DNA from: Clostridia bacterium
Lineage (GTDB): Bacteria > Bacillota > Clostridia > Oscillospirales > Acutalibacteraceae
Direction of reading: 5' to 3'
DNA length: 64,000 nucleotides
Assembly (NCBI GenBank): GCA_017437005.1
Contig: JAFSBZ010000026.1
Span: 55,352-119,351 of the forward strand
The notes under the pieces are model-generated. The model worked only from the letters and a program-made list of their open reading frames with translations, did no database searches and had not been told where the DNA came from. Every line of letters starts with the position of its first letter. Position 1 is the first letter of the stretch. The position numbers were made by a program, and so were the translations under genes. Below, in pieces: positions 3,770-60,918 of this stretch.

Positions 3770-4384
3770 TCATGAATTTTTGAAATACCATCTTCCATCG
3801 AGTTTGACCAATTCAACGGTGCCTATGGCATTGTCTTTTCCTTCATCAAAAGAAAAAGAAATGTCCGCAGAAGCAGTATCTTTTTCAACGGTTATATCGT
3901 AAACGGATATATAAACATCTTCATCTTCAGATATTCCTACTGCACCTAATGACCATAAGTCCTTTAAATTAATCGAGCCTAAAAGTGATGACCCAACATT
4001 TAACAAAGCGTTCATTTGATTTTGTGCAGATGGTTCAAAACAAGCTATCATTTTTTCATAATCACCTTCATTAATCGAAATGGCTAATGTATTGGTTAAT
4101 TCAATAATTTTATCTTCATCACTTTTATGAAAAACTGTAAAACAAAGTGTGAACACGAGTGTCAGTAGAATAATTCCTACACCAATCTTTTTTGGGGAAA
4201 GTTTCTTAAAGAACACACATTTTTCACCGAAAAAATCAATAGTTTTTTTAATAAGGGGGTTTGTAAGTTGAATGATTTTTTGTATCGTAACTTTAGCTGA
4301 ATTATTACCATACAATTTTTTTCCGCATTCTTCACAAAACAAAGAACATTCATTGTTCTCCTTGCCACATTTTGAACAATACAT
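3770..4384 (-). CDS. Zinc-ribbon, single-helix protein with extracytoplasmic domain
   Basis: 204 aa. Residues 1-22 form a zinc ribbon (CSKCG...CEECG), a transmembrane helix lies near residues 70-88, and the C-terminal 110 residues resemble the NTF2-like/DUF4878 type of fold (phrases such as AISINEGDYEKMIACFEP and LVKLDGRWYF). The layout suggests a cytosolic ribbon and an outward-facing domain. First gene of the cluster, beginning 57 bp after the structured leader RNA, from which it is presumably transcribed. The domain assignment is by eye and tentative. Confidence 0.75.
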   Translation of the reverse strand: MYCSKCGKENNECSLFCEECGKKLYGNNSAKVTIQKIIQLTNPLIKKTIDFFGEKCVFFKKLSPKKIGVGIILLTLVFTLCFTVFHKSDEDKIIELTNTLAISINEGDYEKMIACFEPSAQNQMNALLNVGSSLLGSINLKDLWSLGAVGISEDEDVYISVYDITVEKDTASADISFSFDEGKDNAIGTVELVKLDGRWYFKNS

Positions 4385-4440
4385 AAATTTTTACCTCGTT
4401 TCATTATTAGTTATCAGTAAAATTAGATTTTATACCTCCT

Positions 4441-4658
4441 AAAACAAAAAAGTGCGACAACCGAAGTTGTCGCACTGAAAAATGCAAACTCCGATTGTCG
4501 CCAAACAAATTTAAATAGAATTAGAGCAACTATGCCATAACCATTTAATGGAATTTGCGTTTTTACCAAATTCTAAAAAGATTATGACAAAAAAGGGGTA
4601 TATTATTCCCGCAAAAGAAAAAGACACCACTAATTCTATTTATTAAATTTGTTTGGCA
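4441..4658 (-). ncRNA. Structured leader RNA ending in a terminator (copy 1)
   Basis: On the minus strand a sigma-A promoter (4665-4693) is followed by about 215 nt of strongly structured sequence. A long closing stem pairs 4630-4657 with 4500-4524 (GCCAAACAAATTTAA with its complement, plus AGAATTAG). An inner hairpin GAATTTG/CAAATTC presents the loop GTAAAAACG. The closing stem is followed by GCATTTTTCAGTG (4473-4485) and a 10-bp stem capped by TTCG with a T-rich tail (4441-4475). The first zinc-ribbon gene begins 57 bp further on. A homologous element with different stem sequence but the same layout lies at 32661-32836. No known riboswitch class was recognised: there is no T-box GGTGG sequence, and a 6S-like RNA is possible but less likely given the position in front of genes. 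Confidence 0.65.
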
Positions 4659-4664
4659 AGTGTT

Positions 4665-31906: not shown

Positions 31907-32299
31907 TTATAATCCTAATAACTGCTTTTTCTTTGCATCGAATTCTTCTTGGGTAATAATTCCGCTATCAAGTAATTCTTTGAATTTCTTTAATTCATCG
32001 GCATTACTTGTTTCTTGGATGTTGTTTACTATTTGTTGAGATTGTGCTTCAACTTTAGGCACAACCAACGAACTTCTTTTTATTACTGCTAATATAAATA
32101 TAGCAATTAGGCAAAACAACATAAAAATTTTATATATAGGATTTATTGATATAGCATCATATCCTGGTGCATGTGTGATTAGTGAAACCAATCCTCCCAA
32201 AATAAGATTTACAATGGCCATTACTATATGTGATTTTCCATCTCTATCAGTTGCATTTCCAAATATTGATACTAAACATAAAATAATATTTATCAGCAT
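31907..32299 (-). CDS. Membrane protein with C-terminal SHOCT domain
   Basis: 130 aa. Two to three hydrophobic segments in residues 1-75, then a polar linker, then a SHOCT motif at the end (ELKKFKELLDSGIITQEEFDAKKKQLLGL region, residues about 101-130). SHOCT is a short helical oligomerisation-type module found at protein ends. It starts at ATG 32299 inside the preceding gene (overlap of 7 bp, ATGCTGA) with only a weak RBS. The first helix could continue the last helix of the upstream 71-residue product, so the two may be halves of one gene split by a frameshift, or a coupled pair. Confidence 0.75.
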   Translation of the reverse strand: MLINIILCLVSIFGNATDRDGKSHIVMAIVNLILGGLVSLITHAPGYDAISINPIYKIFMLFCLIAIFILAVIKRSSLVVPKVEAQSQQIVNNIQETSNADELKKFKELLDSGIITQEEFDAKKKQLLGL

Positions 32300-32508
32300 T
32301 GATCCAATAAATATATATATACCAATATGTTTCCTACCTCCATCACATAACCAAATAAACTAGTTTTTGCTACACCATTAGTAGTTGAATTGTAGGAAGA
32401 TGAGTAGTGATATTTCATCTCAACGCTTTGAATTGCAAATGTAGAAACCAATAGCAACGCTTGAACAATAAGTTCTATTAAATTAAATAATTTCTTTTTA
32501 CCTAACAT
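32293..32508 (-). CDS. Small membrane protein
   Basis: 71 aa with two hydrophobic segments (residues 8-25 and 50-68) separated by a Ser/Tyr/Asn-rich loop. Starts 2 bp after the small zinc-ribbon gene with AAGGAGAA upstream and ends in a 7-bp overlap with the SHOCT gene. It may be the N-terminal part of the SHOCT protein if the overlap hides a frameshift. No family recognised. Confidence 0.65.
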   Translation of the reverse strand: MLGKKKLFNLIELIVQALLLVSTFAIQSVEMKYHYSSSYNSTTNGVAKTSLFGYVMEVGNILVYIYLLDQC

Positions 32509-32510
32509 AG

Positions 32511-32645
32511 TTAGTTCTCCTTCGTGTTTTTATAATTGCTCTCTTTTTCTGCACATTTGTAATGAGCAGGACTGCCGTTGTCTAAACAAGCATAATCCTC
32601 GTCGTCAATTTCTTTACCACATATTGGACATTGCGGTTTATCCAT
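32511..32645 (-). CDS. Small zinc-ribbon protein
   Basis: 44 aa, a gene easily missed because of size. CPICG (residues 6-10) with C20, H28 and C31 gives a zinc-binding set, followed by a charged tail (EKESNYKNTKEN). ATG 32645 has AAGGGGGTG 6 bp upstream, immediately after the T-tract of structured leader copy 2; first gene of the three-gene operon. The ligand pattern is that of a treble-clef or ribbon-like mini-domain. Confidence 0.75.
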   Translation of the reverse strand: MDKPQCPICGKEIDDEDYACLDNGSPAHYKCAEKESNYKNTKEN

Positions 32646-32660
32646 TTTCTCACCCCCTTA

Positions 32661-32836
32661 AAACAAAAAAGTGTGTGCAACCGAAGTCACACACACCGAA
32701 AAATGCGACCTCGTTTTGCTACCACACAAAAACTTTTAACACTCACACAAGAAATGCCAAAATAGAAGTACGCATTTTTACCTAAATAAAAAATGCCACT
32801 CCTTGCGCGAGTTCAATATTAAGTTTTTGTGTGGTA
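32661..32836 (-). ncRNA. Structured leader RNA ending in a terminator (copy 2)
   Basis: About 175 nt on the minus strand from a good promoter (32844-32872). The closing stem pairs ACCACACAAAAACTT (32821-32835) with AAGTTTTTGTGTGGT (32721-32735). Inside are GGTAAAAATGCG and a GCATTTTT/AAAAATGC hairpin; after the closing stem comes GCATTTTTCGGTG (32694-32706), then an 11-bp terminator stem with a TTCG loop and T-tract (32661-32696). It shares layout, TTCG cap, the GCATTTTTCRGTG segment and GGTAAAAAYGC with copy 1 (4441-4658), while the stem sequences differ but still pair. The next RBS begins directly after the T-tract, so it is best read as a transcription-attenuating leader. Class unknown. 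Confidence 0.65.
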
Positions 32837-32843
32837 TAGTTTT

Positions 32844-32872
32844 ATTATAGCATTGTAATAAATAAATAGCAA
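32844..32872 (-). promoter_or_regulatory. Sigma-A promoter of structured leader RNA copy 2
   Basis: Minus strand: TTGCTA (32867-32872), 17-bp spacer, TATAAT (32844-32849). The expected start is at the foot of the closing stem, as in copy 1. Confidence 0.8.
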
Positions 32873-60635: not shown

Positions 60636-60806
60636 TGATATTCTGCCATTGGAGGAGTGATATTTTCACTTCGTGAAAGTGATATTGAAACCTACGGTTT
60701 CAGTGATATTATATTCGCCTTAAAAAAACTCGCGAAGCGAATATCACTTGTCGTAAGACAAATATCACTGCGAAGCAATATAACTCGCCGTAAGGCGAAT
60801 ATAACT
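60636..60806. repeat. Two-level palindromic repeat array B
   Basis: GTGATAT at 60636, 60658, 60680 and 60704, the inverse ATATCAC at 60742 and 60763, and decayed forms near 60779 and 60800. Between units lie hairpins: TTTCAC/GTGAAA, TGAAACC/GGTTTCA, ATTCGCC.. /..GCGAAT, TTGTC GTAA GACAA, CGCC GTAA GGCG. Same family as array A. It lies between the GH16 operon and tRNA-Arg and contains no gene. Confidence 0.8.
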
Positions 60807-60808
60807 GA

Positions 60809-60844: not shown

Positions 60845-60918
60845 CCCGCTTGAAGGGATTCGAACCCCCGTTCTTCAGAATCGGAATCTGCTGCGTTATC
60901 CAACTGCGCCACAAGCGG
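60845..60918 (-). tRNA. tRNA-Arg (anticodon CCG)
   Basis: 74 nt on the minus strand. Acceptor stem CCGCTTG/CAAGCGG with discriminator G, D-arm GCGCAGTTGGATAACGC, anticodon arm CAGA-TTCCGAT-TCTG with anticodon CCG (reads CGG, Arg), and T-arm with the loop TTCGAAT. No CCA is encoded. The T-stem has two G-U pairs. Confidence 0.93.

Follow-up and report, generated by a model that had tools for sequence, protein, structure and literature searches.

A promoter-linked structured RNA of gut Clostridia that is predicted to work like a transcription attenuator and is possibly a riboswitch

Introduction

T-box leaders (RF00230) are long structured leaders in which an antiterminator and a terminator exclude each other in front of the ribosome binding site and which carry a conserved UGGN motif. 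In metabolite riboswitches with terminator platforms, a 5' domain decides between antiterminator and terminator by strand exchange. LoaP/NusG paralogues carry out RNA-directed processive antitermination in Firmicutes. Fremin and Bhatt (2021; PMC8040213) list 3161 candidates for structured RNAs in contigs from the human gut, of which 508 lie at most 25 bp upstream of genes, and an unnamed one of these candidates may be part of the RNA analysed here. Our literature search returned no paper recognisable as describing this RNA, which is not proof, as most subscription papers and supplements were outside the search.

The DNA under study is a 64,000-nt stretch of Clostridia bacterium GCA_017437005.1 (85% complete), namely positions 55,352-119,351 of the forward strand of contig JAFSBZ010000026.1; this whole stretch is referred to as the window and the assembly as the own genome.

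Results

Comparison with described leader RNAs

No Rfam 15 family reached its gathering score over the two copies of the RNA in the window or over the elements in 20 further loci. The window's only matches at gathering score are a Gut-1 RNA (RF01706) and a tRNA, which lie close together at 60736-60807 (-) and 60845-60918 (-), respectively. Like a T-box, the RNA forms a long leader with a predicted pair of mutually exclusive antiterminator and terminator helices before the ribosome binding site. Unlike a T-box, it is missed by the Rfam T-box model, which does find a T-box elsewhere in locus L170; in its outer stem P1, the UGG of the ACCACAC and GCCAAAC types is missing in the two remaining types found in the own genome (L162 and L232); and the families common among its downstream genes are not those of amino-acid or tRNA genes. 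Since there is no T-box match at the elements and two of the four P1 types have no UGG there, we rejected a T-box identity. The separate T-box leader, at L170:1929-2135 (+), lies close to a copy of this RNA.

With metabolite riboswitches the RNA would share a 5' domain that decides by antiterminator/terminator strand exchange; it differs from them in that no known class matches at gathering score, no pathway signal is seen and the promoter is fused to it at a fixed spacing. The best sub-threshold Rfam match at copy 2 was the L20 leader (RF00558; 18.6 bits, gathering score 58.7, E 0.37), and the paired part of this match is the terminator only. A ribosomal protein leader was rejected because no ribosomal gene occurs among the 25 most frequent of the 88 downstream Pfam families (145 proteins).

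For LoaP and second-messenger signalling, we compared 40 RNA-rich genomes (the own genome and others with at least five matches) with 40 RNA-less ones, all hand-picked from the genomes listed. Processive antitermination by LoaP resembles the present system as RNA-directed antitermination in Firmicutes, and differs from it in that LoaP (NCBIfam) scored over its curated cut-off in 0/40 RNA-rich genomes compared to 2/40 RNA-less ones, which disfavours a LoaP-dependent leader. A GGDEF match was present in 22/40 RNA-rich and 25/40 RNA-less genomes. As 18/40 RNA-rich genomes have no such match, although drafts may miss genes, canonical c-di-GMP is unlikely as the signal. Neither LoaP nor GGDEF is required for the RNA.

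Two related copies in the window

Copy 2 of the RNA occupies 32664-32837 of the minus strand and, with its promoter, extends to 32872 (Table 1). Read from 32837 to 32664, its parts are the P1 5' strand, P2, the P3 hairpin with the inner segment, the P2 3' strand, the P1 3' strand, the linker, the terminator and the T-run. Copy 1 (4659-4445) has the same order of parts, and its P1 reads GCCAAAC.../...GUUUGGC. The folding of the two copies gave z-scores of -8.5 and -8.6, with 0/200 dinucleotide shuffles as good; these scores, together with the swap tests and pair counts presented below, rule out a chance origin of the structure.

Table 1 Features of the two RNA copies and their downstream genes in the window.
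Feature	Position	Strand	Basis or remark
-35 box TTGCTA, copy 2	32867..32872	-	read from sequence
-10 box TATAAT, copy 2	32844..32849	-	17-nt spacer to -35; ends 8 nt before ACCAC
P1 5' strand UACCACACAAAAACUU	32821..32836	-	fold; P1 pairing in 99 sequences
P2 5' strand CUCGCGCAAG, differs between copies	32802..32811	-	swap test
P3 5' strand GGAGUGGCAUUUUU, alternative partner of inner segment	32789..32802	-	swap test
Inner segment GGUAAAAAUGCGUACUUC, P3 3' strand or, alternatively, pseudoknot strand	32765..32782	-	
P2 3' strand CUUGUGUGAG	32742..32751	-	
P1 3' strand AAGUUUUUGUGUGGUA	32720..32735	-	
Linker GCAAAACGAGGUCGCAUUUUUC, pairs with inner segment (pseudoknot) or terminator 5' arm and loop (antiterminator)	32698..32719	-	
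Intrinsic terminator hairpin GUGUGUGUGAC-UUCG-GUUGCACACAC	32671..32696	-	
T-run UUUUUU of terminator	32665..32670	-	bounds from CTTTTTTG match at 32664-32671
Shine-Dalgarno AGGGGGUG	32651..32658	-	
44-residue zinc-ribbon protein, ATG 32645	32511..32645	-	Pfam zf-Vps39_C E 5.2e-6; Prok-RING_1 E 1.1e-4, under its cut-off
71-residue protein, next in putative operon	32293..32508	-	Pfam search: no match
130-residue protein with SHOCT domain	31907..32299	-	Pfam, E 3.1e-11
Copy 1 RNA	4445..4659	-	covariance model E 3.8e-13
Copy 1 P1	4630-4657 with 4500-4524	-	
Copy 1 inner segment	4550-4567	-	
Copy 1 linker	4477-4501	-	
Copy 1 terminator	4451-4476	-	
204-residue protein behind copy 1	3770..4384	-	weak zinc-ribbon matches, under Pfam cut-offs

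A plain DNA comparison found likeness between the two copies in the 3' half only (75% over query positions 111-182, E 4.8e-5). The covariance model built from homologues matched copy 1 from model position 1 to 174, some of the pairs being non-standard. Given this match, the first-pass annotation was right to regard the two copies as related, and their likeness is not confined to the terminator and A-rich runs. They have the promoter, the outer stem, the inner segment, the linker and the UUCG terminator in common, while their stem sequences are quite different, as had been noted. The view that the stems differ in sequence only has to be corrected, since P1 is much longer in copy 1, which also contains an additional arm. 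Likewise, the two copies were taken as direct evidence for selection on structure, for which a single pair is weak; selection on structure as such is borne out by the swap tests and pair counts in the homologues.

Copies in the own genome and in other Clostridia

A sequence pattern search yielded 126 unique matches, of which we dropped seven (two chance matches to coding DNA, three elements truncated at contig ends, one half element and one lacking the inner segment). From the remaining 119, 103 representatives were used for the first swap tests, and 99 of these, after omission of four with long P1 spacing, form alignment A4. The covariance model R1 was made from 99 sequences. The later copy set comprises, after removal of duplicate copies, 176 distinct copies with 162 representatives. 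Antisense matches that mirror the inverted repeats of the element, which numbered 3, 12, 4 and 1 in four of the searches, were excluded from the copy counts.

A DNA search of the own genome returned two more close copies (83% and 80%). R1 gave 13 matches there at E <= 1, consisting of nine sense matches at E <= 9e-6, one at 9.8e-4 and three antisense echoes. Sorted by eye, the about ten copies fall into the P1 types ACCACAC (3), GCCAAA (5), GGCGACAC (1) and GCUACAAACUCAC (1). Even in L232, the most divergent of them with a P1 sequence of its own, both alternative pairings can be read by eye.

At E <= 1e-4, R1 detected the RNA in 109/300 genomes of a family sample, 115/345 of an order sample and 83/341 of a class sample, 80 of the latter outside the own order, and in 1/299 of a phylum sample, namely the own genome. 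Copy numbers per genome from these surveys are lower bounds, as at most 8-9 candidates were scored per genome. The fixed pattern occurs in at least 117 stretches of named genomes. Among the 80 matches listed, the hosts are metagenome-assembled genomes titled Oscillospiraceae, Ruminococcaceae, Ruminococcus, Clostridiaceae or Clostridia, often with a title that also names a gut or rumen sample; one Chitinophagales match lies inside coding DNA and was discarded as chance. The two copies in the window belong to a large, apparently uncatalogued family of predicted RNA switches of gut Clostridia.

A few loci deviate from the common form. L132 and L034 are half elements in which no recognisable P1/P2 precedes the linker and terminator; they may be decayed copies or have arisen by recombination. 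Three IMG/VR contigs (L155, L156 and L157), which may be viral or host fragments, carry the RNA pattern. When copy 2 was used as blastn query at E <= 0.01, no match was found in 50,697 phage and 72,556 plasmid records, and this lack of matches disfavours a phage or plasmid element.

Promoter

A -10 box with at least 5/6 matches precedes 161/174 distinct copies compared to 29/172 control windows, and in 129 of these 161 it ends exactly 6 nt before ACCAC. Both boxes were found in 126/174 distinct copies, the spacer measuring 17 nt in 122, and in 4/172 controls, one of them with 17 nt. Because of this fixed distance, the start of transcription is predicted at or close to the first P1 base. The promoter and the RNA act as a single cassette.

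Evidence for the helices

In the partner-swap test, we compared the pairing of each strand with its native partner to its pairing with partners taken from other copies. For 135/176 distinct copies, native pairing was stronger than swapped pairing for P2 (-11.7 vs -4.6 kcal/mol, z -38.0), P3 (-15.9 vs -11.9 kcal/mol, z -17.4) and the pseudoknot (-16.4 vs -13.0 kcal/mol, z -13.5), and 0/5000 permutations were as good in each case. The corresponding z values in 123/162 representatives were -36.8, -16.5 and -12.8, again with 0/5000 as good. The first tests, on 103 representatives of the 119 matches, had given native means of -16.7 vs -13.8 kcal/mol for inner segment with linker and -16.3 vs -12.6 kcal/mol for linker with terminator 5' arm and loop, both with 0/5000 permutations as good. 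When the terminator 3' arm was masked, the antiterminator reached -15.7 compared to -11.8 with swapped linkers (130/176 copies). All these energies are predictions that leave out the pseudoknot geometry, and unparsed copies stand outside them (41/176 in the swap tests, 46/176 in the terminator/antiterminator folds).

The first-pass annotation had also proposed a covariation test. Run on the homologues, it was positive on most measures, with the reservation that kinship among copies inflates shuffle tests. P1 is paired in 98.9% of cells in 99 sequences, with 5 of 13 pairs changed on both sides and 4 that never vary; the terminator helices are paired in 94.9% and 89.5% of cells. In A4, the covariation score was 0.283 vs 0.122 in shuffles for P1 plus terminator, 0.241 vs 0.187 for the pseudoknot and 0.247 vs 0.190 for the antiterminator, and for all three both the score and the fraction of cells paired exceeded all 500 shuffles (99 sequences). 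For the pseudoknot, neither double-changed pairs (4 vs 3.9) nor pair types (12 vs 13.5) were in excess over shuffles, and 5 of its 14 pairs are invariant. The conservation of P1 and linker is overstated, because the collecting pattern partly fixed these columns.

By eye, the sequence of the terminator loop tends to match that of the linker: a CGAAG or CGGAG linker often goes with a UUCG loop, L050, L063 and L079 combine the linker CAAAUGGA with the terminator loop UCCAUUUG, and in L150 the linker GUUAGAGUU accompanies AACUUUAAG. Because the loop follows the linker, the UUCG cap is probably kept for antiterminator pairing too, beyond hairpin stability. Taken together, these computations support a set of predicted helices consisting of P1, a very variable P2, P3, pseudoknot, antiterminator and terminator, including the sharing of strands among them.

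Downstream genes

A Shine-Dalgarno-like sequence follows the T-run within 22 nt in 141/176 distinct copies compared to 6/174 controls. Copy 2 is an example, its T-tract adjoining the ribosome binding site of the 44-residue gene as the first-pass annotation had stated. The chosen start lies at a median distance of 20 nt (n=173). A start preceded by a Shine-Dalgarno sequence occurs within 40 nt in 112/172 copies, and because the other 60/172 have none, some copies may act differently.

Among 145 first downstream proteins, Pfam matches comprised 15 LRR_5, 10 SHOCT, 8 Zn_Ribbon_1 and 6 DZR, followed by 4 DUF6809, 4 Cu_amine_oxidN1, 4 HIRAN and 3 ABC_tran; the families can overlap on one protein, and the open reading frames were chosen automatically, some of them wrongly. 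By a crude hydrophobicity rule, 106/145 have a transmembrane segment or a signal-like N-terminus, which is a raw count without genome background. Zinc ribbons are thus one part of a mixed envelope and accessory gene set. A specific tie to zinc or zinc-ribbon genes is not supported, and zinc is not favoured as the signal given the mixed gene content.

Behind copy 1, a good Shine-Dalgarno sequence (AGGAGG, window 4435-4440) lacks a start codon at normal spacing. The nearest ATG behind it is about 30 nt away (4404, in another frame), and the zinc-ribbon gene starts at about 50 nt, which looks as if a small gene had been lost. Elsewhere in the own genome, L165 (C12) and L231 (C24) precede similar proteins of 41-42 residues (MPDYK...), yet their stems differ; these proteins may be a small-protein family tied to the RNA.

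Proposed mechanism and alternative explanations

We propose that the element is very probably a cis-acting transcription attenuator fused to its promoter, in which P3 and antiterminator would represent the ON state and pseudoknot and terminator the OFF state. Transcription would begin at P1, and P1 and P2 would build a rod. The inner segment would first close the hairpin P3 with its upstream partner, and the emergence of the linker would then allow two outcomes. In the ON state, P3 would be kept, the free linker would pair with the terminator 5' arm and loop to form the antiterminator, and the gene would be read. In the OFF state, the linker would invade P3 and form a pseudoknot of about 14-15 bp with the inner segment, the terminator arm would be left free and RNA polymerase would halt before the ribosome binding site. 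The folding order, the default state and a signal (small molecule, protein or physical condition) that biases P3 versus pseudoknot are elements of this model that we infer.

The model builds on two strands with two partners each, the inner segment pairing with the P3 5' strand or the linker, and the linker with the inner segment or the terminator. This double pairing of the linker, which the first-pass annotation had overlooked, is the predicted switch itself. The mutually exclusive pairs have nearly equal predicted energies: P3 and pseudoknot reach -15.9 and -16.4, with the pseudoknot stronger in 68/135 copies, and terminator and antiterminator -17.1 and -15.7, with the antiterminator stronger in 38/130. 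As expected of an attenuator, an intrinsic terminator stands just before a gene (terminator pairing in 99 sequences, Shine-Dalgarno sequence in 141/176 copies) and, by computation, an antiterminator excludes it; the attenuator arrangement proposed earlier for copy 2 has gained computational support in this way. Leader-peptide attenuation is unsupported, as open reading frames with a Shine-Dalgarno sequence inside the element are not in excess (39/176, fewer than the mean of 49.8 in mononucleotide shuffles).

If the attenuator reading is true, the standard catalogue lacks a regulatory RNA that is common in gut and rumen Clostridia and often occurs several times in a genome. Such an RNA would offer a handle on the regulation of surface repeat proteins, lipoproteins, exporters and small membrane proteins in mostly uncultured bacteria. 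It would also provide a clean, naturally occurring switch based on two-step strand exchange, with hundreds of variants that could be used in the search for ligands.

What the attenuator might respond to can be weighed from the same data. The RNA is predicted to work like an attenuator and is possibly an orphan riboswitch for a metabolite or second messenger; in this version of the attenuator reading, a small molecule would bind P1-P2-P3 and favour one state. We put this at somewhat short of an even chance. The two-state expression platform, the tandem copies, the class-wide distribution and the leader reading frames that are not in excess agree with it, as does an AAUA tract seen by eye at the P1-P2 junction in 9/10 own-genome copies. 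However, conserved unpaired bases are few, whereas many known aptamers have more of them, and no pathway points to a ligand because the downstream genes are very mixed. It is somewhat unlikely, with an appreciable chance nonetheless, that an RNA-binding protein acting as antiterminator or terminator factor reads P1 or the A/U tracts. The conservation of the P1 core within a P1 type, where a stem would need pairing only, speaks for such a factor, but part of this conservation is a product of the search pattern, P1 varies between types in one genome and LoaP exceeds its cut-off in none of the 40 RNA-rich genomes. The near balance of P3 with pseudoknot and of terminator with antiterminator would also fit a ligand-free sensor of temperature, polymerase speed or Mg2+, or a deliberate bistable switch for cell-to-cell variation of surface proteins. 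Near balance would be seen in ligand-controlled switches too; we consider this reading improbable.

Two further explanations dispense with regulation in cis. A free-standing gene for a trans-acting small RNA, made up of promoter, structured RNA and terminator and followed by genes by chance, would account for the promoter at a fixed distance from P1, for a terminator that would release an RNA of about 170 nt and for the copies without a nearby translation start. The Shine-Dalgarno-like sequences directly behind the T-run and the coevolution of the linker with both the arm and the loop of the terminator, a feature superfluous for a plain terminator, make it very unlikely; moreover, the P2 arm showed no clear extra complementarity to the downstream mRNA of its own copy (-9.50 vs -9.27, sd 0.15). 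A MITE-like mobile repeat without regulatory role, for which the many dispersed and tandem copies might speak, is hardly credible in view of the coevolving helices, the orientation and spacing to genes and the copy 2 search of phage and plasmid records.

Stem turnover in tandem copies

Tandem arrays contain two to four copies. In five of 11 tandem pairs, the 45-nt promoters are at least 85% identical (mean 94%). Within these five pairs, identity amounts to 69% for bases 10-36 (inner P1 and P2 5' arm), 53% for the 3' arms and 84% for the platform, compared to 61% (sd 7), 51% (sd 10) and 66% (sd 14), respectively, and 61% (sd 5) for the promoters in unrelated copies; in the L258 pair, the platform cut is poor, as is the fold of one copy, and linker and terminator are identical. 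The arms pair at -15.6 within a copy, at an average of -7.4 across tandem neighbours and at -6.3 between unrelated copies (7/11 sets; L233, L258 twice and L262 were left out), with strong cross-pairing as an exception in L260 (-14.6 and -11.1) and in one L195 cross (-13.0). Because their arms are near the level of unrelated copies, pair within the copy and pair little across, tandem duplicates mostly seem to acquire new stems.

It is an unusual mode of evolution that tandem copies stay nearly identical while their paired stems are replaced, and one that is directly testable. Gene conversion of the flanks is the ordinary alternative, and n = 5 is small. A farther-reaching scenario, which we consider decidedly doubtful, is that of a promoter-fused, Clostridia-wide switch family spread by duplication, in which the platform is kept and each new copy gains an orthogonal stem as insulation or copy-specific address; a genome might then control its surface and secreted proteins through at least ten switches with separate addresses, possibly for bistable bet-hedging without DNA inversion. 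The longest array, in L258 (G289:C26), has four copies in a row, in which ACCACAC-type copies alternate with other P1 sequences.
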